Source of the DNA: a virus
Virus record (IMG/VR): IMGVR_UViG_3300037246_002191
Span: 1 to 28,195 of that record
DNA: 28,195 bases
Direction: 5' to 3' (one strand)
Made by a program: the position numbers and the translations under genes. The notes beneath the pieces were generated by a model. The model worked only from the letters and a program-made list of their open reading frames with translations. It did not search any database and was not told the origin of the DNA. Shown here one piece after another: positions 3,208 through 15,173 of the stretch (positions are counted from its first letter, which is position 1; every line of letters starts with the position of its first letter).

Positions 3208-3388
3208 CCAGTACGAGGCGTTCCGCAAGCTCACCGACGAGCAGTACGCGCACTGCACGCTGACGGAGAAGCTCAACGTCTACCTGCAACACCACCCCAT
3301 TCGCGCGGTCGCGTTCCTGGAGGAGCTCGTCCGCACCATTTACCCAGCCTGGGACAAAGACAATGACAGACATCCAAGCACTGATTGA
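3191..3388 (+). CDS. Hypothetical protein, 65 aa
   Basis: This short gene overlaps its neighbours on both sides by 17 and 26 bases. The protein is probably helical, with a central hydrophobic helix ('IRAVAFLEELVRTIYPAW') and an acidic, His-containing C-terminus. No domain is recognised. The unusually large overlaps lower confidence slightly, but no better frame covers this stretch. Confidence 0.55.
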   Translation: MTQSTDQYEAFRKLTDEQYAHCTLTEKLNVYLQHHPIRAVAFLEELVRTIYPAWDKDNDRHPSTD

Positions 3389-3803
3389 CGGATACATTTC
3401 CACACGCCTGGCGTACGACGACGCGCACGAAATCTCGAGCGCAGCCGACAAGGAACACAAGGGCGCGAAGGCCAAGCTCGTCGAGGCCATGGTCAGCGAG
3501 CAGCAGACCGGCATGAAGATGGACTACGGCCTGGGCTTCAACCTCCGCAACCAGTTCAGCATCAGCTGCAACATGGAGAACGAGGAGGACGTGAAAGAGT
3601 GGCTGCACGAACGCTACGGCGACATCGAGCAGTTCACGACCCTCAAGGTCGCCAAGAAGACCGTCGAGGAGAGACTGAAAGCCGACATCGAAGGCGAGGA
3701 GCTCGACCAGTTCGACGTCCCCGACTTCATGAACTTGAAGACCCGGCCGGATGTATCGTGCACCGGTTGGAAAGCCTACTCAGCACAGAAAAGGAGCGAA
3801 TGA
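3363..3803 (+). CDS. Hypothetical phage replication-module protein, 146 aa
   Basis: Residues 1-50 look like a helical hairpin or coiled coil ('AADKEHKGAKAKLVEAMV'). A beta segment follows ('YGLGFNLRNQFSISC'), then a helical part 'VKEWLHERYGDIEQFT', and a C-terminal segment ends in 'DVSCTGWKAYSA'. Proteins of this shape are common in phage replication modules, but I do not recognise a named family. The stop (TGA) lies within the start region of the next gene, so the two are probably coupled and may work together. Confidence 0.72.
   Translation: MTDIQALIDGYISTRLAYDDAHEISSAADKEHKGAKAKLVEAMVSEQQTGMKMDYGLGFNLRNQFSISCNMENEEDVKEWLHERYGDIEQFTTLKVAKKTVEERLKADIEGEELDQFDVPDFMNLKTRPDVSCTGWKAYSAQKRSE
3791..3796 (+). 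promoter_or_regulatory. Ribosome binding site AAGGAG deciding the start of the 3803 gene
   Basis: AAGGAG lies six bases before the ATG at 3803 and only three before the in-frame ATG at 3800. Spacing favours 3803 as the main start. Confidence 0.65.
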
Positions 3804-4627
3804 TGGCGAGCAAGAAGAAGAACGGAATGACTGTCTGGAAGCCCCGCGAGTTCGACGGCAACGATCTGTTGCCGGTGAACGATGCAGTGGCACTCGCGCC
3901 CATCGAGGGCGTCCCCGAGCTCGTCGGCCGCGAGCATGTCGACCCGAAGGATCTACTGTTGCCGAGCCTGGCGCTCTTGCACGGGACGTCTGACGCGGTC
4001 CAGAACAAGCTGGACGGGGCCGAGGCCGGCCTGTTCATGCATACGGGCACGGAGGAGATCCTGCCCGAGGGCGCGCTGCGCCTGATCTTCGCCCACCACC
4101 ACAAGGGCAACGCGCTCTTCCCCAAGGAGGACGCACGCTACCAGGGCCTCGAGACGTGCATCTCGCGCGACCAGGTGGAAGGCACCGTGTACGGCTCGTG
4201 CGAGGAGTGCCGCAAGTGCCTGGACTGGGACGACGAGAACAACCTGCCGCCCCTGGGGGCCGAGACGCACCACTTCGTCGCCATGACCGACCGCGGGCCG
4301 GTGATGATGCGGTTCTCGCGCACCAGCTACAAGGCGGCCAACAAGTTCATCTCGTCGTGGATGATGTCGCGGAAGAACCTGTGGGCACATCCTGTGGTGG
4401 TTCGCATCGTCACGGGGAACAAGACACTGGCGACCGGCCAGGTCAAACTCTACCACCACATGCAGCTGGCCTGGCAGACGACGGAAAAGGTACCGGATGA
4501 GCTTCAAAGAGCGGCCTTCCAGCTCTACAAGGAGGTCGAGTCGAAACACGAAACCGGCAACCTCAAGTCCCATGACGAAGGCGCAGACGAAGCGAGTGAC
4601 GAGCTCTTCGATACACCACCAGACTAG
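3803..4627 (+). CDS. Cys-cluster protein with acidic tail, candidate ssDNA-binding protein, 274 aa
   Basis: The N-terminal 20 residues are basic. Residues 46-100 match a pattern common in phage replication modules: 'VDPKDLLLPSLALLHGTSDA', then a 'GLFMHTGTEEIL' strand. C119, C133, C136 and C139 could form a zinc site. The region after residue 160 is mixed alpha/beta with many aromatic and basic residues ('MMRFSRTSYKAANKFISSW'). The last 20 residues are strongly acidic (DEGADEASDELFDTPPD). A zinc site plus an acidic tail recalls single-stranded DNA-binding proteins such as T4 gp32 and T7 gp2.5. Its place directly before the primase-helicase also fits, but no OB fold can be proved by eye. An in-frame ATG at 3800 is an alternative start. 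Confidence 0.72.
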   Translation: MASKKKNGMTVWKPREFDGNDLLPVNDAVALAPIEGVPELVGREHVDPKDLLLPSLALLHGTSDAVQNKLDGAEAGLFMHTGTEEILPEGALRLIFAHHHKGNALFPKEDARYQGLETCISRDQVEGTVYGSCEECRKCLDWDDENNLPPLGAETHHFVAMTDRGPVMMRFSRTSYKAANKFISSWMMSRKNLWAHPVVVRIVTGNKTLATGQVKLYHHMQLAWQTTEKVPDELQRAAFQLYKEVESKHETGNLKSHDEGADEASDELFDTPPD

Positions 4628-4645: not shown

Positions 4646-4681
4646 GACGGCCGCGGCGAGTTGAGGTTCGCTGCGGCCGTC
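4646..4681 (-). terminator. Hairpin with T-tract on the minus strand (possible intrinsic terminator)
   Basis: A perfect 9-bp inverted repeat (GACGGCCGC / GCGGCCGTC, 4646-4654 and 4673-4681) extends inward through G-T, G-C, C-G, G-C and A-T pairs to a small loop near 4662-4665. On the minus strand it is followed by GTTTTTGTT (4645-4637), the form of an intrinsic terminator. On the plus strand only a weak CTGCGTT follows. It fills the only sizeable gap in the plus-strand block. It may stop transcripts reading in from the virion block, or act in both directions. Confidence 0.6.
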
Positions 4682-4694
4682 TGCGTTAGAGCCC

Positions 4695-7600
4695 GTGCAA
4701 ATGGAACGAAGCCACTTCGGATCAGTGAAGGAAGCGTTCGCTACGCAACATGAGCGTAGCCTGGAAATGCTAGGAGTCGTCGTCAAAAAGGGTGGCGATC
4801 GACAATGGCAAGCGGTCGCCTGCCCCTGTTGCAGCGACACCGACGGCAGTGCCAGCATCGCGAAAGCGAGCGGCCATCTCCGCTGTCATCAGTGCGGACG
4901 CAAGCTCGATCTGTTCGAGTGGTGGGCCGAGAACAACGGGTGCTCGACCTGGGATGCGTGCAAGGCGATCGGGGAGATACTCGGGGTGCCGTTGCCGAAG
5001 ATGAAGAAGCGCAAGGGTCGTGAGGTTCAGAAGATGACCCCCGAGCGCCTCGACCGAGCGATCCACAATCTCATGGAGCTCGAGGAGGCGGGGCAGTCTC
5101 GAGCCTACCTCGAGAAGGCCGGCTTGTTCGACCCGGCGATGCTCGCCAGGTTCGGCGTCGGATGGCTCGAGGGGTGCCTGGTGTTCGCGCAGTTCTACCC
5201 GAACGGCGAGCTCCGTCAGCGGTACCGGAGGCACACGCCGGCGGCGAAACAAAAGTGGGGGTGGAGCAAGGGCGCCGGCGGGCCGATCGGCTTCTGGCCG
5301 TACATGGAGCTCCCCGACGACGCCGAGCTCCTGATCTGCGAGGGCGAGAAGGACGTGATGGCGGCCTGGAAGATCATGAAGCTCCACCGCCGCGAGGTGC
5401 CGATCTTCGCCTTCACCTGGACCGGCGGCGCCGGCGCTCCCGTGACGTCGGCCCTGATGCCCGAGGCGTGGCGAGGTCGCCGCGTGTGGGTCTGCTACGA
5501 CAACGACACGTTCCAGGGGCCGGACCTGAAAACGCACCGTGCGCCGGATCCTCGCAAGCTGAGAGACTTGATCCGCCGGCGCGACAACCTGGTGCACGGG
5601 GTGGCCGAGAAGTTCCAGGCCAACGGCTGCGACGTCCACCTGCTGCACGTCGACATCGACCCGATCGACCACCATGGCGCCGACCTGCGCGACTGGGCCA
5701 CCGCCGGCAAGACGTTCGCCGACTTCCCCCAGTGCGAGCTCGCCGAGCTCGTCGACCCGACAGACGACCCCGAAGAGGTGTCGCATGGCGGGGTGTTCAT
5801 GTCGGCCGGCAAGTACGTGACCACCAAAGGGTCGGTCGCGCTGATCGAGAAGAACACCCTGACCGTGCCGAGCGAGACGAACATCATCTGCCCGATCGGC
5901 AGCAAGCCCTGCTGCGGCATCTGCCCGGTGACCAGGCTGTTCTCCGAGCAGTTCATCGACTGGAAGATGTACCGCGGCGAGCTCCTCGCGGCGCTGATCT
6001 CTCCCAACCCTGACCGGCACATCATCACGAACCTGCTGGGCAAGCCACCTGGCTGCAACGAGTGCAAGCTCGAGCACCGCGAGTACGTGAACGGCGCCTG
6101 GTGGCGGGTGTCGCCTGGCGCGACCGACGAAGGCGACGGCACCGAGCTCTACAACGTGGTCAGCACCGACCGGCCGTCATTGTCGGGGGACGTCGGGATC
6201 ACCGGCTACGCGCATCACGTCAGCGGCAGCGTCGGGATCTTCGCCACCAAGCTCGAGCAGCTGGACAAGCCCGACGTCGATCTCGAGCTCTACCACCACG
6301 AGCTCCTGCCGATGACACCGTGGGCGACGAACGACCAGGCCGCGATCGACAAGCACGTGGACGAGATGGTGCACGACTACACGCACAACGTCAGCCAAAT
6401 CTACGGCCGGCCCGACCTGCACCTGGGCGTCATGCTCGTCGCGCACTCGGCGCTCTGGTACAACCTCGACGGCCACAAGATCCGGGGCTGGCTCGACGCC
6501 TGCTTCTTCGGCGAGACCCGTCGGGGAAAGAGTGAGACGATCAAGCGGCTGTTCGAGCACTGGCGCCTGGGCGCTTCGTTCACCTGCATGGAGAACTACT
6601 CGAGGGCGGGGCTCACGGTTGGCGGCGCCGAGAGCGGCACGCAGATGCGGCCTGGCCTGTGGCCGAAGAACAACCGGAAGATGATCTTCCTCGACGAGTT
6701 CCACCACATGTCCGAGCAGGGCATCTCGCGCAACGTCATGGTCCACTTGCAGAGCGCACGCGACGAGGGCAAGGTGTCGGCGCTCAAGGTCTACGGCGAC
6801 CTGAAACTGCCGGCGGCCTCGAGGCTCATCACGGCCGGCAACTGGAGCAAGCGGAACAAGCGGCACTTCCAGTACTACTGCCAGCACCTGCTCGACTTCT
6901 ACGGCGTCCCCGAGAGCCTGGCGCGGATGGACTTCGCCTGGTGCGTCCACGGCGACGTGCCGATGAAGCCCGAGGACGTCGAGCACCAATGGACGACCGA
7001 CCTGGCGCGAGCTCTGATCCTGCGGGCCTGGTCGATGGAGCCGCACCAGATCCACCTGGCGCCCGAGGCCGTGGCCCTGGCAAAGCAGACGTGCATGGAG
7101 TGGAACGCGATCTACGCCAGCGAGGAGCTCCCGCTTCACACCGGCATCGAGAAGTACCACAGCATCATCCGCATCGCCATCGCCATCGCGAACATGTGCT
7201 ACAGCCACCCCAAGGGGCGCGAGGCCGACTGCGAGGTCCGCGAGGTGCACGTCATGTGGGCGATCTGCTGGATCTTGAAGACGTGGGAGAACCTGCAGTA
7301 CGACCAGTTCAGCCAGCGAGTCATCCAGGCCCGCACCGTGACGCAGCCGTTCCTGGTCGAAGCGAGCTTCACCTGCCAGCTGGCCCTCGAGGACCCCGAC
7401 CACGCCATGGTCATCCTCTCGCGCCTGTCGGAGACGAACAGCATGCAGTCGCTCATGGGCTTCGTGCTCGGCAACGGACAGATCGAGGAGCAGCGGCACT
7501 TCACCAAGTGGCTCGGCTTCTTGCAGCGGTGCTCGGCCTTGCAGGAGCGGTCAGACAACCGCTACCACAACCAGTACGGACCGACCGAGGGGGCGCTCGC

Positions 7601-7796
7601 CATCCTGCGCCGGCTGATCCACCTGGCACAGACCGATCCCCAGGCGTACGTCGAGCGGTACAACACGATCGACAAGTGGTTCTGCGCCCCAGACAGCAAG
7701 ATGCCGCTGATGCCCAACCAGGTCGCCAACCCTGGCGGCCTCGAGCCCCTGGACAACACCGACCCGGAGAGCTTCCTCGATGACTGCCCCTTCTGA
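4695..7796 (+). CDS. Primase-helicase: CHC2 zinc finger, TOPRIM primase and MCM-like AAA+ helicase
   Basis: This 1033-residue protein probably primes and unwinds DNA at the replication fork. It opens with a CHC2-type zinc finger (C43, C45/C46, C64, C67). A DnaG-like RNA-polymerase domain follows with TOPRIM acidic residues E216, D269 and D271. Residues 395-460 hold a second Cys set (C399, C406, C407, C410, C454, C457), placed like the N-terminal zinc domain of MCM helicases. The helicase has Walker A GETRRGKS (606-613), an MCM-style 'SRAGLTVGG', Walker B MIFLDEF with D667/E668, sensor-1 N716, and 'PESLARMDF' with R744 where MCM has its SRFD arginine finger. This differs from the RecA-like DnaB/T7 gp4 type. 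The start could be GTG at 4695 (used for numbering) or ATG at 4701; neither has a strong ribosome binding site. The next gene overlaps its end by 17 bases. Confidence 0.9.
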   Translation: MQMERSHFGSVKEAFATQHERSLEMLGVVVKKGGDRQWQAVACPCCSDTDGSASIAKASGHLRCHQCGRKLDLFEWWAENNGCSTWDACKAIGEILGVPLPKMKKRKGREVQKMTPERLDRAIHNLMELEEAGQSRAYLEKAGLFDPAMLARFGVGWLEGCLVFAQFYPNGELRQRYRRHTPAAKQKWGWSKGAGGPIGFWPYMELPDDAELLICEGEKDVMAAWKIMKLHRREVPIFAFTWTGGAGAPVTSALMPEAWRGRRVWVCYDNDTFQGPDLKTHRAPDPRKLRDLIRRRDNLVHGVAEKFQANGCDVHLLHVDIDPIDHHGADLRDWATAGKTFADFPQCELAELVDPTDDPEEVSHGGVFMSAGKYVTTKGSVALIEKNTLTVPSETNIICPIGSKPCCGICPVTRLFSEQFIDWKMYRGELLAALISPNPDRHIITNLLGKPPGCNECKLEHREYVNGAWWRVSPGATDEGDGTELYNVVSTDRPSLSGDVGITGYAHHVSGSVGIFATKLEQLDKPDVDLELYHHELLPMTPWATNDQAAIDKHVDEMVHDYTHNVSQIYGRPDLHLGVMLVAHSALWYNLDGHKIRGWLDACFFGETRRGKSETIKRLFEHWRLGASFTCMENYSRAGLTVGGAESGTQMRPGLWPKNNRKMIFLDEFHHMSEQGISRNVMVHLQSARDEGKVSALKVYGDLKLPAASRLITAGNWSKRNKRHFQYYCQHLLDFYGVPESLARMDFAWCVHGDVPMKPEDVEHQWTTDLARALILRAWSMEPHQIHLAPEAVALAKQTCMEWNAIYASEELPLHTGIEKYHSIIRIAIAIANMCYSHPKGREADCEVREVHVMWAICWILKTWENLQYDQFSQRVIQARTVTQPFLVEASFTCQLALEDPDHAMVILSRLSETNSMQSLMGFVLGNGQIEEQRHFTKWLGFLQRCSALQERSDNRYHNQYGPTEGALAILRRLIHLAQTDPQAYVERYNTIDKWFCAPDSKMPLMPNQVANPGGLEPLDNTDPESFLDDCPF

Positions 7797-8145
7797 AAAT
7801 GCATCAAATGCATCATGCAAAAGCATCACGGTGACCGACAAGCTCTGCCGCCGAGTGTTCGTGCGGCTCGCCAAGAAGCTCGAGACCGAGTACGAGGGGC
7901 ATTTCCCCTACGTGAGCGCCGGCGATGCGTTCTTCGACCGACTCAACCACGTCGAGGCCAAGCTGCACCAGGCGCTCGAGCAGCGGCCACTCACCCGGGC
8001 CGAGATCGACAGCCTCGAGCTCCGCGCTTTCAAGGCGCTGCGCGCTACCATGGTGAAGGTCGCGAAGACTGTCACGCAGCCGCAGTTTCGCGAGGCGATC
8101 GACCTCGAGACCGGAAAGACCAGGCTGATCCCCGAGTATGACTAA
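7780..8145 (+). CDS. Hypothetical small helical protein, 121 aa
   Basis: The ATG lies inside the end of the primase-helicase gene (17-base overlap). The N-terminal 15 residues are low-complexity, coded by a 9-base tandem repeat. The remainder is mainly helical and charged, with 'KLCRRVFVRLAKKLETEYEG', 'FFDRLNHVEAKLHQALEQR' and a C-terminal helix rich in Lys. No domain is recognised. It is sandwiched between the primase-helicase and the resolvase, so a part in replication or recombination is plausible but not shown. Confidence 0.7.
   Translation: MTAPSENASNASCKSITVTDKLCRRVFVRLAKKLETEYEGHFPYVSAGDAFFDRLNHVEAKLHQALEQRPLTRAEIDSLELRAFKALRATMVKVAKTVTQPQFREAIDLETGKTRLIPEYD
7798..7815 (+). repeat. 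Tandem 9-bp repeat AATGCATCA x2
   Basis: AATGCATCA occurs twice in perfect tandem and is followed by TGCAAAAGCATCA, a partial third copy. This AT-rich patch stands out in GC-rich sequence. It codes for Asn-Ala-Ser repeats in the small helical protein and begins at the primase-helicase stop codon. Confidence 0.7.
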
Positions 8146-8599
8146 CGCGCTCGAGCTCCACGTCCGGAAGGTGGCCTGGGAGCTGCACGACCACCAGGTC
8201 GCCAGGCTCTACAAGATCCCGAACGACGTGAAGATGGAAGCCGGCGTGATCGTGCACGGCGAGCAGACCCCGTGCGACTTCATTGGCTTCACGGTCACCG
8301 GCCGAGCCATCCTGATCGAGTGCAAGATGTTCAAGGAGCTCTCGCTGCCGGTCGGCGACAAGGGCCTCAAGGCGCACCAGCTCAAGGCGATCACCGAGTG
8401 CCACAAGGCCGGCGGCATCGGGCTGCTCGTGTGGCAACGCGGCGCCGAGCTCGCGGTCATCGACCCCGACCAGGTGCTCGCCTACTCGAGGGGCCGGAAG
8501 TCCATCCCGTGGAAGGCCATCGCGGCCAAGTACAAGAAGCCGGTCACCTGCGAACCGCTCGAGTTCTTCCGGCCGTTCGTCACCGCACCTTGTCCATGA
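8138..8599 (+). CDS. recU: RecU-type Holliday junction resolvase, 153 aa
   Basis: RecU enzymes cut four-way DNA junctions using a PD-(D/E)xK nuclease fold. The visible catalytic set is D47 ('CDFIGF'), E61 and K63 ('LIECK'). It is followed by the family pattern 'SLPV' (69-72), 'HQL' (80-82), 'KAGGIGLLVW' and 'RKSIPWKAI' near residues 120-128. Length is close to the family's usual size, though slightly short at the N-terminus. In phages such enzymes clear branched DNA before packaging. The gene overlaps the upstream gene by 8 bases. Its last 20 bases overlap the 3' end of the oppositely oriented virion gene. A more general VRR-NUC/PD-(D/E)xK nuclease is the alternative, but the RKSIP and HQ motifs favour RecU. 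Confidence 0.85.
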   Translation: MTNALELHVRKVAWELHDHQVARLYKIPNDVKMEAGVIVHGEQTPCDFIGFTVTGRAILIECKMFKELSLPVGDKGLKAHQLKAITECHKAGGIGLLVWQRGAELAVIDPDQVLAYSRGRKSIPWKAIAAKYKKPVTCEPLEFFRPFVTAPCP

Positions 8600-11500
8600 T
8601 GCGGTTAGAGATTTCGAACGCCTGCTCGTCGTACGTCTCCTTGTCGATCAGGCCGGCATCGCGACTCCGCCGCAGCTTGTTGAGCTTCTCCTGGGCTCGG
8701 TTGATCTGGGTGTAGAGCCGGCGCTCTGCCGACGTGCGATTCTTCGCGCTGATCTGGCCGATGCGCTTGCCCTCGACACGCATGTCGTTCACCGTCCGGC
8801 TCGCACCGTGCGGAGTCTGCCGCAGGAACCGGTTGATGAACGGGCCGACGCCAGTGAAGGTCGACATACCCGGGTGGTCCTTGAGACCAGTGACTTCGTC
8901 AATCGCACGGAAGATCGACGTCGAGAAGCCGGCCGTGTAACCGCCGAGGAAGTGCTCGAGCTCGATCGGGTTGCCACCGAGCCGCATTCCATAGGTCCAC
9001 AAGAGTTGCGCGGTCCTGGAAGTGTCGCCGCGCATCTGCTCTTTCGGCTCGCGGCTCTGCTCAGTCCAGTAAGGCGTGATGTCCCGGCCACGGAAGAAGT
9101 CGTAGCCGGTCGTGAGCTCGGCGATGGGCTTGACCGCCTGCGGGATCATGCTCGACATCTCCGTGAAGTAGGGGAACATCGCGCTGCCGAGCATCGGCAG
9201 AATCTCATTGGGGTTGCTGTCCGTCAAGTTATCCATGAAGGCCATCGGGATCGAGCCGAACAGCATGCCGAGCTCGAACGGCAGCGGCAGCGAGATGATC
9301 GTGTCGCCGAGCTTCATGTTCAGGAAGTGAGACTTCCGCCACTGCGGCAGGTCCTTGTACCAGTCCTCGTCGTGGATCCACCACCAGTTGGCGAGCACCG
9401 GTAGCGTGATCGAGGCCAGGCCGTTCGCCATGGCCGCTCGCTGCAAGCGCCCACGCTCTTCGTCGTCACGGCCCTCCATACCCAGCACGGCGCGGATCAG
9501 CTTGCGCTGTCCAGCCAGGCCGGCCGCGAAGTAGGGAGTCATCTGGTTATACCAGCGTGCCATGTCGCCGGCCCGAGCGAAGTTGACGGTGATCTCCTTG
9601 GCCGCCTCGAGCGCCTCGTAGCCAACCTCGAGAGCCTCCTTGTCGCCGGTCCTGAGATCCTCGGCGTTCCGCTTGAACACGCGCTCGTACTCGCCGAGTC
9701 GGATCCAGCTCTCAGGCGTCGTCCAGAAGCTGGTCCACTTGTCGATCGCCTTGCGGGTCTGGTCGTGAATCCCCGCCGCCTGGCCGCGCATTTCCTTGCG
9801 GATCCCCTGGTTGTAGAAGGAAGCCGTGGACGCGCCCGACGCGATGAACATTTCGTACATCGCTCGCCTGGTCGGGTCGGGGTCCTTCTTCATCTTCTCC
9901 ATCAGCTTCTGGAAGCGCGGGGTAGTGCCGTAGCGCAGCTGCATCGCGGCGCCGGCATACACGCGGCGCAGACCGCCGAGGGGTTCGAACTTGCCGTCAC
10001 GGCTGAACACCGAGGCGGATGAGACGTCGCGGATCAGGTTGGCGACGGTGAAGGTCGGGTTCGCATCGGTAGCGAAGAACCGCAGGAACTGCGCCGGCGT
10101 CCGCAGCGCGAAGTCCACCACCCCCCACTTATCCGAGATCATCTGCATCGGAGCGCCAATCGACATGAGCGCCTCGAAGGCGGGCCTGTCGACCTTCATC
10201 CAGACCATCTTGCCGTTGTTCTGGCGAGCGAGCTTCCGCGCGTACTTGCTCGGCAGCGCCTCGATCTGCGCGTCGGACATCCGCGGCGTGTAGGCAATGA
10301 TCGGGTCCTTCTCGCCGATCGGCAGATCCTTCTGCGCGAACAGTGTGATGAGCGTATCGGAGAGCGGCTCACCCTCGAACATCTCGGCGAACACGCCGTA
10401 CTCCTCTTCTATTTCCTGCCGAGTGCGCCTGAGCTCCCCCAGCGCGAGCGGGTCGTTTTTGAGCTTCTCCTCCTGCTTGTCGAGGTTCTTCCGCATGCCC
10501 TCCTGGATCTGCCGAATGACCTGGTCGATGCGGTAGTCCTTCGGCACGTTGGCTCTCGGGATGAGCGTGACCAGACCGCCGACGTCAGCGTGGAGCGACA
10601 GCCCGTAGAGCGCGCCCACCACCTGGTTCTTCCGCGCCTTGACGATCATCGAGGTCGTCACGTCCTCCATCGCCTTCATCGGGTCCTCGAGCTCCCACGT
10701 CCCGCCTTCCTTCATGCGCTTCACGCCGGTCCCGCCTTCGGCCACGCCACGGCCTGGTGAGAAGCGAGAAACGCCGCCCTCGATGAGACGGACGAATGGA
10801 ATGTAGACGGTGCCCTCTTCCTTCATGCGGGTCGCATCCGCGAAGGTCAGGTTGCCGCCCTCGACCACCAGGTCGACCAGGCTGTCACTCCACGCCTTCA
10901 ACGCCGTCGCCTTGCCCACGAACTCGGGGTACAGCGCGAGGATGTCGGCGACACCGCGCACGTAGTCCGACTTCGGAATCGGCATCGAGAACTTCTTGCC
11001 GGCGAGCTCGGCCTTCTCGAACTTCTCGAGCGCCCGGGTGCCGTAGATGTAGTCGATGAAGTCGATGATCCGCTGGGCGCGGACGTCGCCCTTCGTGTCG
11101 CCGGCGACGTCCTTGATGATGTCGTAGAACGACTGGACGCCATGGACCTTGCGCCAGGCCAGGTCGTGCGGCCCGTTCTTCAAGTAGCTCTCTGCTTCCT
11201 TCGGCGCGGTCATCCCGAGCGTGTCGATCATGCGCGACGGGTCCTGCAAGATCGTCAGGTCCTTCAAGTCCACGTCCGACCGCTTGAGCCATCGCTCCTG
11301 GCTCTTCTTGAGCTCGATCTTGTCGTCGAAGAAGGCTTTGATGACGGCGTCCGAGACTTCCTGGAGCTCGCGCCTGTCGTACGGTTCGAACTCGAAGCCG
11401 GCGCGCCGCAGCGTCCGACCCATGCGCCGGCGGGAACCCATCTCTTTCCAGATCGCCAGGTTCTTCTTGAGGTCGTAGTACTGACCACCCTTTTTGATGA

Positions 11501-14500
11501 AGCGCGGGTGCCTGGCGAGAAACGCATTCATCTCTCTCGAGAACGCCGGCGCTGACGCCTCGAGCGTCTCCTCGCCGAGCACGTCGCGGACGATCCACTC
11601 GGCGAACGCCTCGGCGGCCTGCTCTTTCTTGGTGAGCTTCTGCCACCGTGGATAGTTCTCCAGAATCACCGGGATCTCGGCCTGGGCCGCGGGCGGCAAG
11701 CCCTTGCGCCAGCTGTCAACAACTGTCCAGAAACCGCCCCCACCGATGGCCGCGTGCAGCTGCCGTTGCAGGGAGTGACCCCACTCGTGCAGGTTCACGA
11801 CCAGCTCGAGCCCTTCCTGGGTCTGGATCAGGTTCTCGAAGACTTTGAACAGGCCGAGCGCCTTCTGCCGGCCCATGTGGCCGGCGTGCATCGCGATCTG
11901 CACCTCGGAGCCCTTCTTGGCGCCGAACCGCCGCTTGAACCAGCGGATGCCTGGCTTGTCCTGCTTGCCCCGCATGATCTGGTGGATGTAGGAGAGGTAG
12001 GTTTCCTCCTCCTTCGACATCTTGTCGCCCGGGTCCTCCTGCTGGCGGTACGGGTTGGCTCCGCGCCGCATGCTGTCCGGTCCGTACCGTTCACCGAAGG
12101 TCGGATCCACCTCCTGGCGCTCGGCCTTCACGGCCTCTGATTCGGCCTGTGCGGCCTCCGGCATCTTCGGGGTCTCGAGCTGGCGTAGATCCTCCTCGGC
12201 TTGAGCCTGGCGCAACCTCGCGGACATGACGGGATCCTGGCTGATCTCCGAGATGTCCAGGTCCTTCGCGAGCTCGAAGGCGTCACGGCGCGCCGCCATG
12301 CGCTCCTCGGCCGACCTGGAGAAGTCCTCCATCACGCGCAGCGCATCGCCGTACCGCTTGAGCAGGTCGTATGGCGCGCCCATCGCCTTGGCGATCCTCT
12401 GCAACTGCTTGCGCGACGTGGCGTGCTCCTTGATCTCCTCGGCCGTCGGGCGCCTGCCCTGGCGCTCGGTGACCGGGGCCTTCTCGGGGCCGACCTGGCC
12501 TCGCCTCACCTGCGCGCCGAGCTCGGTCATTGCCTCGGCGCCGGCGGCAGCGACCTTGCCGCGCTGCTGCTCGAGGAGCTCGGCCACCCGCTGCCGGTTC
12601 TCCGGGGTCGCGCCCTCCCTGCCGAGCCGCTGCACCTCGGCGTGGAGCTCCTCGGGGGTCAACGGCCTGGCGGCCTCGGCCTCGTCCTCCTGGCGCAGGC
12701 GCTCGAGCTCGCGGCCCGCCTCCTCGGCGGTGGGGGGTCGCTCGGGCTTGCCACCCTCGGGCGGCGGCTCGCCGATTGGCCGCGTCGGGAACTTCGACTC
12801 CTTGGGCGGGAAGACTTCGCCTTCCTTGGGCGGCCGGTAACGCTCACCCTTGAAGGGACCGTACAGTCGCTCGGGCTTCTCGCCTTCGACCAGGCGCGGA
12901 CGAGGCCCCTCGCCTTCGCCTTCCTTGGTGCCCAGCGTCTCGGGGTAGCCTTCCTCGCGGCGCATCTCCTCCTCGCCGCGCATCTCTTCTTCGATCGCCT
13001 TGTCGACCCGTTCTCGAGCTCGCCTTTCCAGAGCTTCTTGCGACCGCTTCCGGAGCTCCTCGTCGGCCGGCTTCGGCGGCTTCCCTGGCTTCGGCTTGGC
13101 AGTGCGCTCCTGCTCTTCCGCGCGGCGCATTTCTTCCTCGCCGCGCATCTCCTCTTCGATCGCCTTGTCGTACCGGCGAGCTCGCGCCAGGTCAGCCTCG
13201 AGGTCGATCTTCGCCGGCGGGGCCTTCCCTGGCTCGACGCCTTCGGCGCGCATCGCTTCGTCGGACTCCTCGCGTGTGAGCTCGCGAGCGCCCAGGCCCT
13301 CTTCCACTTCGGACACCTTCTTCGCGACCACGCCGCGTGAGACTCCGCGTGCCGTCCGGATTCCTTCCATCGTGCCAGGCGGCAGGAAGTCGATGTCGAC
13401 GGCCGACCGCTTCGCCATGCCCTTGAAGATGCCGAAGCCGATCATCGCCTGCGCGTAGCGCATCAGCGTGCTCTCGTTCGGGTCCTGGATGAAGTCGAAG
13501 ACCGCGAACTGCATCGTCTCGTTGATCGCAGTGAAGCCCAGGCCCTCGGCCCCGCCGGCGAGGAGCATCGCGCGGCGCCGCCACCCGGTCTTGCTGCGGA
13601 TCGCCTTCTCCGTCCACTTCCCGCCGGCGCCGATCGCCATGATGATCGGGGCCATCTTGGCGCCGTCCTTGAACGCCTGGTAGAAGCCCTCGTGCTGATT
13701 GAACGCGATGCCTTCGGCCAGGCCCTGGCCGGCAGCTGCGCCGAACGTGCCGCCGATCAGCGAGATGATCTTGGTGCCGCGCTCGCCCATCTGCGGCAGG
13801 CGCTGGAGACCCTTGCTCATCATCCATAGGCCGGCCTGCTGGCCCTTGCCCATGAAGCCGCCGGCGACCTTGCCGAAGCCGCCGAGCATGCCGACCGTCG
13901 CCGCCGAGCCGCGGAGGATCTTCTGGAAGTCATTGGTCTGCGCTGTCTCCCAGGCTCGCGCCGAGCCGGCCCGACCGAGTGCTCGTGCGACGTCCTCGCC
14001 GAAAATCTTGGCCTTGACCGCGATCGTGATTTCGGTGATGCCTGGCACCTTGCCGGCGTTGGTGTAGAGCTTGCCGTCCTCGCCTTCGATGTAGTTCGAC
14101 GGAGGCGTCCAGCCGACGAGGTTCATGCCGCCATAGACCAGTTGCAGCGGGAAGTTGGCATACGCCTCGCTGGTCTCGAGCGCGCCCAGCATCATCTCAT
14201 TGAAGACGCCCTTTGGAGCTCCTCGACCTTCCATGCTCGTGGGCTGGATGAAGCCGGTGGATGTCTCCGACTCGCGAGCGATCCAAGTCGCGATCTTCGC
14301 CGTCATCGGATGCGAAAAGACGTTCCACGACGGGTCGATCTCCTTCATCTTCGCGTCGATCTGCGCGAGCTTGTGGCGCTGGTCTGCCACCACGAGCGGA
14401 TCCATGACGATCGGCTCCATCTGCATCCGGTGTCGCGCCAGCTGCATTGGGTCCATGTCGGATGTGTCGATCGCGTAGCGTGACTTGTTGCGCTCCCGAT

Positions 14501-15173
14501 ACTGCTCGAGGCCCGAGCGCAGGAAGTCCTCGCTGCCGGCCCAGTCCAACTCTTTCAGCGCAGCGTTCAGCTTGACTCGCTTCTCGAGATGATTGTAGGC
14601 GAGCCGCTTGATCTCCGTGCGCCAGTCGACATAGGTCGCGTTCGGTGCGCGCTCTTTCGGCTCCATGCCGGCGGCTTTGATCCTGACGTTGGAGATCGCC
14701 AGCTGCTTGTCGAGCTCGAGGAACATCGCCTCGGCCCCTTTCTCGTCGCCAGCCTCGAGCAGCCGCATCGCCTCATCGTTGAACATCTTGGAGCGCGCCT
14801 CTGCCTCGGCGTCCCCTGGACCGATGAAGCCTGGCGGTGGTGGCTGCGGTCCCACAAACTCTTCGACGTCGGGGTAGAACTGCTCGTCCTCCAGTCGCAG
14901 GTTGCCTTGCTGCTCGGGGCCGACGTCACCGAACGGCATCTGACCTGGCGCGAGCGGTTCAGTGAGCAGGCCCTCCTCGTCTGGGTCGAACGGCTCAACG
15001 TCTTCTGCATCGAGCCTTTCCTGTGCGCGTGCGAGGTCGTCCGGGTCGCGGTTCACCAGGGTCTCGTAATCCTGGTAGTACCGCCCACCGCCCTCCTCAC
15101 CGAACGGCTCGGTGAGGGTGGTCGCCTCAGTCGTGCCCCGGATGTCGGGGGGTCCTTGTCGCTTGGCTGCCAT
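8580..15173 (-). CDS. Giant polyvalent virion protein with HEWGH metallopeptidase motif and LPD38-like C-terminal region, 2197 aa
   Basis: This is the last and largest gene of the virion block, probably an internal protein ejected with the DNA (inferred from position and size; T7 gp16 is 1318 aa). Residues 1-400 are acidic then helical. Residues 420-520 are Gly/Ala-rich and hydrophobic ('IISLIGGTFGAAAGQGLAEG') and could enter a membrane. Residues 640-960 are disordered, rich in Glu, Lys, Arg and Pro, with a duplicated 16-residue motif (669-684, 724-739). HEWGH (1129-1133) with Glu residues in 'EQAAEAFAEW' (1184-1193) marks a zincin metallopeptidase. Residues 1700-1950 resemble the LPD38 domain of phage polyvalent proteins ('DANPTFTVANLIRDV', 'YFAAGLAGQRKLIRAVLG'). 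No lytic transglycosylase motif was recognised. The start is joined to the previous stop as TAATG without a clear ribosome binding site, so coupling is likely. Confidence 0.88.
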   Translation of the reverse strand: MAAKRQGPPDIRGTTEATTLTEPFGEEGGGRYYQDYETLVNRDPDDLARAQERLDAEDVEPFDPDEEGLLTEPLAPGQMPFGDVGPEQQGNLRLEDEQFYPDVEEFVGPQPPPPGFIGPGDAEAEARSKMFNDEAMRLLEAGDEKGAEAMFLELDKQLAISNVRIKAAGMEPKERAPNATYVDWRTEIKRLAYNHLEKRVKLNAALKELDWAGSEDFLRSGLEQYRERNKSRYAIDTSDMDPMQLARHRMQMEPIVMDPLVVADQRHKLAQIDAKMKEIDPSWNVFSHPMTAKIATWIARESETSTGFIQPTSMEGRGAPKGVFNEMMLGALETSEAYANFPLQLVYGGMNLVGWTPPSNYIEGEDGKLYTNAGKVPGITEITIAVKAKIFGEDVARALGRAGSARAWETAQTNDFQKILRGSAATVGMLGGFGKVAGGFMGKGQQAGLWMMSKGLQRLPQMGERGTKIISLIGGTFGAAAGQGLAEGIAFNQHEGFYQAFKDGAKMAPIIMAIGAGGKWTEKAIRSKTGWRRRAMLLAGGAEGLGFTAINETMQFAVFDFIQDPNESTLMRYAQAMIGFGIFKGMAKRSAVDIDFLPPGTMEGIRTARGVSRGVVAKKVSEVEEGLGARELTREESDEAMRAEGVEPGKAPPAKIDLEADLARARRYDKAIEEEMRGEEEMRRAEEQERTAKPKPGKPPKPADEELRKRSQEALERRARERVDKAIEEEMRGEEEMRREEGYPETLGTKEGEGEGPRPRLVEGEKPERLYGPFKGERYRPPKEGEVFPPKESKFPTRPIGEPPPEGGKPERPPTAEEAGRELERLRQEDEAEAARPLTPEELHAEVQRLGREGATPENRQRVAELLEQQRGKVAAAGAEAMTELGAQVRRGQVGPEKAPVTERQGRRPTAEEIKEHATSRKQLQRIAKAMGAPYDLLKRYGDALRVMEDFSRSAEERMAARRDAFELAKDLDISEISQDPVMSARLRQAQAEEDLRQLETPKMPEAAQAESEAVKAERQEVDPTFGERYGPDSMRRGANPYRQQEDPGDKMSKEEETYLSYIHQIMRGKQDKPGIRWFKRRFGAKKGSEVQIAMHAGHMGRQKALGLFKVFENLIQTQEGLELVVNLHEWGHSLQRQLHAAIGGGGFWTVVDSWRKGLPPAAQAEIPVILENYPRWQKLTKKEQAAEAFAEWIVRDVLGEETLEASAPAFSREMNAFLARHPRFIKKGGQYYDLKKNLAIWKEMGSRRRMGRTLRRAGFEFEPYDRRELQEVSDAVIKAFFDDKIELKKSQERWLKRSDVDLKDLTILQDPSRMIDTLGMTAPKEAESYLKNGPHDLAWRKVHGVQSFYDIIKDVAGDTKGDVRAQRIIDFIDYIYGTRALEKFEKAELAGKKFSMPIPKSDYVRGVADILALYPEFVGKATALKAWSDSLVDLVVEGGNLTFADATRMKEEGTVYIPFVRLIEGGVSRFSPGRGVAEGGTGVKRMKEGGTWELEDPMKAMEDVTTSMIVKARKNQVVGALYGLSLHADVGGLVTLIPRANVPKDYRIDQVIRQIQEGMRKNLDKQEEKLKNDPLALGELRRTRQEIEEEYGVFAEMFEGEPLSDTLITLFAQKDLPIGEKDPIIAYTPRMSDAQIEALPSKYARKLARQNNGKMVWMKVDRPAFEALMSIGAPMQMISDKWGVVDFALRTPAQFLRFFATDANPTFTVANLIRDVSSASVFSRDGKFEPLGGLRRVYAGAAMQLRYGTTPRFQKLMEKMKKDPDPTRRAMYEMFIASGASTASFYNQGIRKEMRGQAAGIHDQTRKAIDKWTSFWTTPESWIRLGEYERVFKRNAEDLRTGDKEALEVGYEALEAAKEITVNFARAGDMARWYNQMTPYFAAGLAGQRKLIRAVLGMEGRDDEERGRLQRAAMANGLASITLPVLANWWWIHDEDWYKDLPQWRKSHFLNMKLGDTIISLPLPFELGMLFGSIPMAFMDNLTDSNPNEILPMLGSAMFPYFTEMSSMIPQAVKPIAELTTGYDFFRGRDITPYWTEQSREPKEQMRGDTSRTAQLLWTYGMRLGGNPIELEHFLGGYTAGFSTSIFRAIDEVTGLKDHPGMSTFTGVGPFINRFLRQTPHGASRTVNDMRVEGKRIGQISAKNRTSAERRLYTQINRAQEKLNKLRRSRDAGLIDKETYDEQAFEISNRIMDKVR
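12957..13170 (-). repeat. Pair of 49-bp direct repeats inside the polyvalent gene
   Basis: Bases 12957-13005 and 13122-13170 are near-identical copies 165 bases (55 codons) apart. Both encode DKAIEEEMRGEEEMRR in the disordered region. Differences are scattered and mostly synonymous, which suggests an in-frame duplication followed by drift under protein-level selection. Confidence 0.8.

Follow-up and report, generated by a model that had tools for sequence, protein, structure and literature searches.

The question raised by this locus is what kind of protein unwinds and primes DNA for the phage that carries it. Replisomes are usually taught as two kits, namely DnaG with the 5'-3' helicase DnaB, or an archaeo-eukaryotic primase (AEP) with the 3'-5' helicase MCM. 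According to the initial annotation, the gene at 4695..7796 (plus strand, 1033 aa) joins a DnaG-like primase to an MCM-type helicase, and the profile and structure searches presented here bear this out. We consider it highly probable that the protein is the replicative primase-helicase of the phage, in which a DnaG-type primase is combined with an MCM-type helicase. The window, i.e. the whole analysed stretch of DNA, is a 28.2-kb virus record with a tailed-phage gene layout: virion proteins, among them an SU10-type major capsid protein and an adaptor, are encoded on the minus strand, and the plus strand carries a replication/recombination block.

The reading frame can start at GTG 4695 or at ATG 4701. 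A full-length relative with 62% identity to the window protein, L010 from a 47.6-kb viral contig, starts at the ATG equivalent to 4701, and this ATG, not GTG 4695, may be the true start of the fusion gene. Between the two genes there are 306, 229 and 435 differences at codon positions 1, 2 and 3, respectively, with dN of 0.32 and dS of 0.81. The excess of third-position differences and the dN value lying well below dS indicate that the fusion ORF is a functional gene. In addition, the genes flanking it on both sides are syntenic in the window and L010, and in an alignment of 70 relatives residues E218, D269, D271, K612, E668, N716 and R744 are invariant or nearly so.

Among the conserved neighbours on the plus strand are an upstream gene for a Pam3 gp34-like protein (3812..4627) and a downstream gene for a RecU-like Holliday junction resolvase (8138..8599), both retained in L010. 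The two neighbours encoded within 3363-4627 resemble gp33 and gp34 of cyanophage Pam3, which belong to families without assigned function, and such genes may travel with the DnaG-MCM replication module. Elsewhere in the window, an APS-kinase-like P-loop domain and a cytidylyltransferase-like domain are combined in one possibly NAD-related protein (946-1704), and the minus strand (8580-15173) encodes a virion-associated polyvalent protein of 2197 aa that contains an LPD38 domain.

Just upstream of the fusion gene, a hairpin with a 15-bp stem and the loop TTGAGG is found at 4646..4681 (plus strand), and its L010 counterpart is located at 5942-5979. In both records the stems comprise 15-16 bp, and about 15-20 bp separate the hairpin from the primase gene that follows. 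The loop is identical in the two, while the stem sequence is wholly different yet still paired, with minimum free energies of -32 and -35 kcal/mol and z-scores of -3.5 and -5.8 in the window and L010, respectively. Flanked by an A-run on the left, the hairpin looks like a terminator of leftward transcription. It may instead act in regulation or as part of an origin, and it may be separate from the fusion gene.

The N-terminal half of the protein is identified by its sequence as a DnaG-type primase composed of a zinc ribbon and a TOPRIM core, both on the plus strand. The zinc ribbon (4800..4934, residues 36-80) has the four ligands C43, C46, C64 and C67 expected of the CHC2 type of DnaG primases, with Cys in the usual His position in the window lineage. 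The family profile matched the DnaG zinc-domain structure 1d0q here (E 5e-11), and the window protein alone matched TIGR01391 dnaG over residues 29-159 (E 5.7e-7). The RNA-polymerase core with TOPRIM occupies 5040..5714 (residues 116-340), where the family shows no variation in the catalytic residues E218, D269 and D271 and almost none in R178 and K187. In PDB, the N-terminal family profile found Aquifex DnaG 2au3 (E 5.1e-29), and below it other DnaG proteins, the primase of T7 gp4 (E 1.6e-7) and, weakly, twinkle proteins. The window protein alone matched phrog_47, DNA primase, in PHROG (E 4.8e-13). Behind the TOPRIM core, the MCM half takes the place of the C-terminal DnaB-binding domain of cellular DnaG.

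By sequence profiles and modelling, the C-terminal half is an MCM-type helicase consisting of an N-tier, an AAA+ motor and a winged helix, all on the plus strand. The MCM-like N-tier (5802..6329, residues 370-545) is modelled as strand-rich and OB-like and contains a likely zinc site formed by C399, C407, C410 and C454, which are conserved among relatives. Its profile gave no credible sequence match to MCM N-domains in PDB, so that the N-tier assignment is drawn from the model. At the other end, a C-terminal winged helix is predicted in the full-length model at 7395..7583 (about residues 901-963), with helices 901-913, 917-926 and 933-945 and strands 949-952 and 960-963; generic winged-helix proteins were weakly found there by the family profile (best E 0.0065).

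The motor itself (6330..7379, residues 546-895) carries the complete set of landmarks, which align with SsoMCM and archaeal-virus MCMs. These are the Walker A GETRRGKS (6510..6533, residues 606-613) with the invariant K612; the helix-2 insert (6600..6665, about 636-657), in which SRAGLTVGG (636-644) is aligned with STAAGLTAAV of SsoMCM; the Walker B MIFLDEF (6681..6701, residues 663-669) with the invariant E668; the presensor-1 beta-hairpin (6771..6812, about 693-706), in which K698 is aligned with the lysine of SsoMCM IAKAG; the invariant sensor-1 Asn N716 (6840..6842); the arginine-finger segment PESLARMD (6909..6932, residues 739-746); and the sensor-2-like Arg R826 (7170..7172), aligned with SsoMCM LIRIS. 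SRAGLTVGG, IFLDEF (664-669), N716 and PESLARMD were all correctly placed in the initial annotation, and its suggestion that PESLARMD stands where MCM has SRFD is confirmed by the alignment of R744 with the Arg of SRFD. Both MCM hairpins expected there are present in the predicted structure, with strands 642-644 and 651-653 in the helix-2 insert and 693-695 and 704-706 in the presensor-1 hairpin.

Taken alone in Pfam, the window protein falls below the curated cut-offs, with 19.9 bits against 23.3 for MCM (E 4e-4) and 14.2 bits against 24.9 for the DnaG zinc ribbon, and its identification is therefore based on profile and structure searches. Relatives from BSP7, Wollypog and Youna2 exceed the MCM cut-off, and the strongest MCM scores among the DnaG-MCMs searched belong to the viral-contig relatives L043 5812-8757 and L056 5875-8796 (E 3e-15 and 1e-19). 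The Pfam MCM family (PF00493) was dropped as evidence by itself, since it is not MCM-specific: it matched in 14 of 14 control genomes, including bacteria without an MCM replisome, via related AAA+ proteins. In a single-sequence PDB search with the window protein, MCM6 and MCM7 came out at the top, MCM6 being first. When PDB was searched with the profile of residues 368-898, built from 67 relatives, the best 60 matches were MCMs without exception (SsoMCM E 3.6e-14). The AlphaFold model of the same residues (mean pLDDT 88.1, pTM 0.86) likewise had only MCM chains among its best 50 Foldseek matches in PDB (E about 1e-22 to 1e-20). Best structural matches to DnaB/RecA, SF3 or another AAA+ clade, named in the initial annotation as the outcome that would speak against MCM, did not appear. 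The Foldseek alignments cover 549-589 columns for a query of 531 residues and therefore should extend across the N-tier. Their rmsd of 6-12 A suggests a difference in domain orientation.

The helicase half was also compared with the family of BcMCM, an AEP-MCM protein from a B. cereus prophage that is reported to have 3'-5' helicase activity, an ATPase stimulated by ssDNA, and both primase and polymerase activity (PMC4538821). AEP-MCMs of Bacillus phages score 421-466 bits with the DnaG-MCM family profile over its whole length, which is close to the 433 bits of the window protein, and archaeal MCMs score only 30-55 bits, in matches that mostly cover the AAA+ region. In tblastn, AEP-MCM matched DnaG-MCM phages with E values down to 9e-58 over about 600 residues. 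These AEP-MCM proteins are carried by phage vB_BboS-125, which has a DNA_primase_S match, and by its relatives in viral contigs, whereas this AEP domain was not found in the window protein with Pfam. Judging from these sequence similarities, the helicase half shares descent with the BcMCM chassis, and this kinship of the motor with AEP-linked phage MCMs is a point beyond the initial annotation.

Phage MCMs all fall on one side of a quick tree of the AAA+ region and archaeal MCMs on the other, with support of 100; the AEP-MCMs group together, and the window protein is joined to L010 on a long branch of their own. In this tree the window lineage lies outside a set made up of the AEP forms and the other DnaG forms. 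A single DnaG-MCM clade is not rejected by the AU test (p 0.76), and the constrained tree had the better likelihood. Thus, one phage MCM chassis is combined with two unrelated primases, AEP and DnaG, and no direction of exchange is implied by this statement.

To understand how widely the fusion is distributed, we searched viral and cellular genomes. Scanning viral contigs with the single sequence gave no hits, and it took an alignment-based scan to reveal relatives in 258 viral contigs. Matches were present in 52 annotated phage records, two of them to the primase part only and one (vB_BboS-125) to the AEP form. Isolates with DnaG-MCM include Krampusvirus and related Microbacterium phages, Arthrobacter phage Wollypog, Bacillus BSP7/BSTP, Paenibacillus API480/SV21 and Weizmannia Youna2. 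Proteins of the DnaG form from phages have Pfam matches to both TOPRIM and MCM, and several also to the DnaG zinc ribbon. Among the species genomes of bacteria and archaea searched, 84,980 in number, matches along most of the length were restricted to four loci, all in metagenome-assembled genomes, which is why we regard DnaG-MCM as essentially a phage family.

The initial annotation took the design to be “uncommon” and the precedent for MCM in bacteria and phages to be limited to a few prophage types; its view of rarity needs revision, since the fusion is common in phages (the 258 contigs and about 50 sequenced phages with relatives) and phage MCMs extend beyond a few prophage types. DnaG-MCM represents a widespread layout of the replication machine and not a one-off, and it is apparently undescribed. 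In the literature we found no description of the DnaG-MCM fusion or its biochemistry; our search did not include the 2016 survey of dsDNA-virus replication proteins, so priority is unproven. A survey from 2018 stated that bacterial MCM helicases had until then been described only in phages and reported that MCM is linked to PrimQH-family AEP primases (PMC5862659). In public records DnaG-MCMs are labelled “DNA primase”, “DNA primase/helicase”, “DNA primase small subunit” or “DNA directed DNA polymerase”. The last label is borne, for example, by the DnaG-MCM of L002 (5959-8805, MW202657.1), a genome in which there is a separate PolA-type gene.

The gene content of these phages bears on the role of the fusion protein. 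No DnaB_C match was found in 24 records (the window and relatives, with eight complete phage isolate genomes among them), and in 20 records there was no match over the cut-off to AAA_25/RepA-type replicative helicases. PolA or DnaE polymerase is encoded in 18 of the 20 DnaG-MCM records tested. The exceptions are the window and L010, in which A-family polymerase, B-family polymerase and DnaE were not found, and therefore their replisome is either incomplete in these records or host-supplied. Genes adjoining the primase-MCM gene include recombination genes. Given the lack of DnaB_C and the frequent presence of PolA or DnaE, the simplest reading is that in these phages the protein acts as both primase and helicase at the fork.

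Alternatively, the helicase half may be an MCM devoted to origin melting or recombination restart, while host DnaB drives the fork. Host factors may indeed serve the window and L010 phages, in which no polymerase was identified, and origin binding by the winged helix and N-tier is conceivable. However, other family members come with replicative polymerases of their own and lack DnaB, and the physical joining of the primase to the motor suits a moving fork, so we consider such a restricted role unlikely.

Doubts may also be raised about the MCM identity of the motor, because the helix-2 insert and the presensor-1 hairpin are common to the whole presensor-1-hairpin AAA+ clade. A non-MCM member of this clade (Mg-chelatase/MoxR/ComM type) would be expected to remodel complexes and not to drive a fork; a weak Pfam match to Mg_chelatase (E 0.04) and the PF00493 matches to bacterial non-MCM AAA+ proteins agree with such an assignment. 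Nevertheless, it appears very improbable, since all the best fold and profile matches are MCMs, in alignments long enough to take in the N-tier, and the whole chassis is akin to BcMCM at the sequence level. There is hardly any chance that the protein is an ordinary primase-helicase of the T7 gp4/twinkle type, in spite of the T7 gp4 primase match and the “primase/helicase” labels, because the exclusively MCM matches of the motor and the absence of DnaB_C from the window and its relatives refute a DnaB/RecA-type motor.

For the replicative primase-helicase, the homologues and MCM biology allow us to propose a mechanism. MCM rings move with the N-tier in front, translocating 3'-5' along the template of the leading strand. 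By analogy, the fusion protein would form a hexamer, hydrolyse ATP and follow the same strand with the same polarity, its N-tier turned toward the fork. This would place the fused primases on the N-terminal side of the ring, near the exit of the excluded lagging strand, where they may make RNA primers for a polymerase encoded by the phage or supplied by the host. We think it somewhat more likely than not that these proteins define a widespread, hitherto undescribed class of phage replisome, in which a DnaG-type primase is placed at the front of a leading-strand 3'-5' MCM ring within one polypeptide, and in which AEP and DnaG have been interchanged on one MCM chassis.

The DnaG-MCM family mixes bacterial and archaeo-eukaryotic replisome parts in a single protein in hundreds of phages, and pairs one phage MCM lineage with either of two unrelated primases. 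Since cultivable isolates are available, the coupling of a primase to a leading-strand helicase becomes directly testable. Uninformative “DNA primase” labels on many phage proteins are corrected as well.

Comparison with known systems places the window protein between several of them. T7 gp4 likewise has a DnaG-type primase N-terminal to a hexameric motor, but its motor is of the RecA/DnaB type, which runs 5'-3' and encircles the lagging strand, in contrast to the AAA+ MCM of the window protein with its proposed 3'-5' movement on the leading strand. Archaeal and eukaryotic MCMs share with it the AAA+ landmarks and, going by its predicted structure, probably the two-tier fold, but have no fused primase. 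MCM-like helicase Cch of SCCmec is, as here, encoded by a bacterial mobile element, but, as described, without a fused DnaG-type primase (PMC7581432). The proteins of Krampusvirus, Wollypogvirus, BSP7/BSTP, API480 and Youna2, recorded as “DNA primase(/helicase)” without MCM naming, have the like DnaG and MCM architecture along their length, at 19-23% overall identity to the window protein. Finally, the BcMCM-type AEP-MCMs (B. cereus prophages, vB_BboS-125; phrog_18685) have the N-tier, AAA+ and C-terminal chassis in common with DnaG-MCM, but bear at the N-terminus an AEP primase unrelated to the DnaG/TOPRIM primase of the window protein. The phage primase-MCM as such was already known, and what is apparently new is a form with DnaG in the place that AEP occupies in BcMCM.
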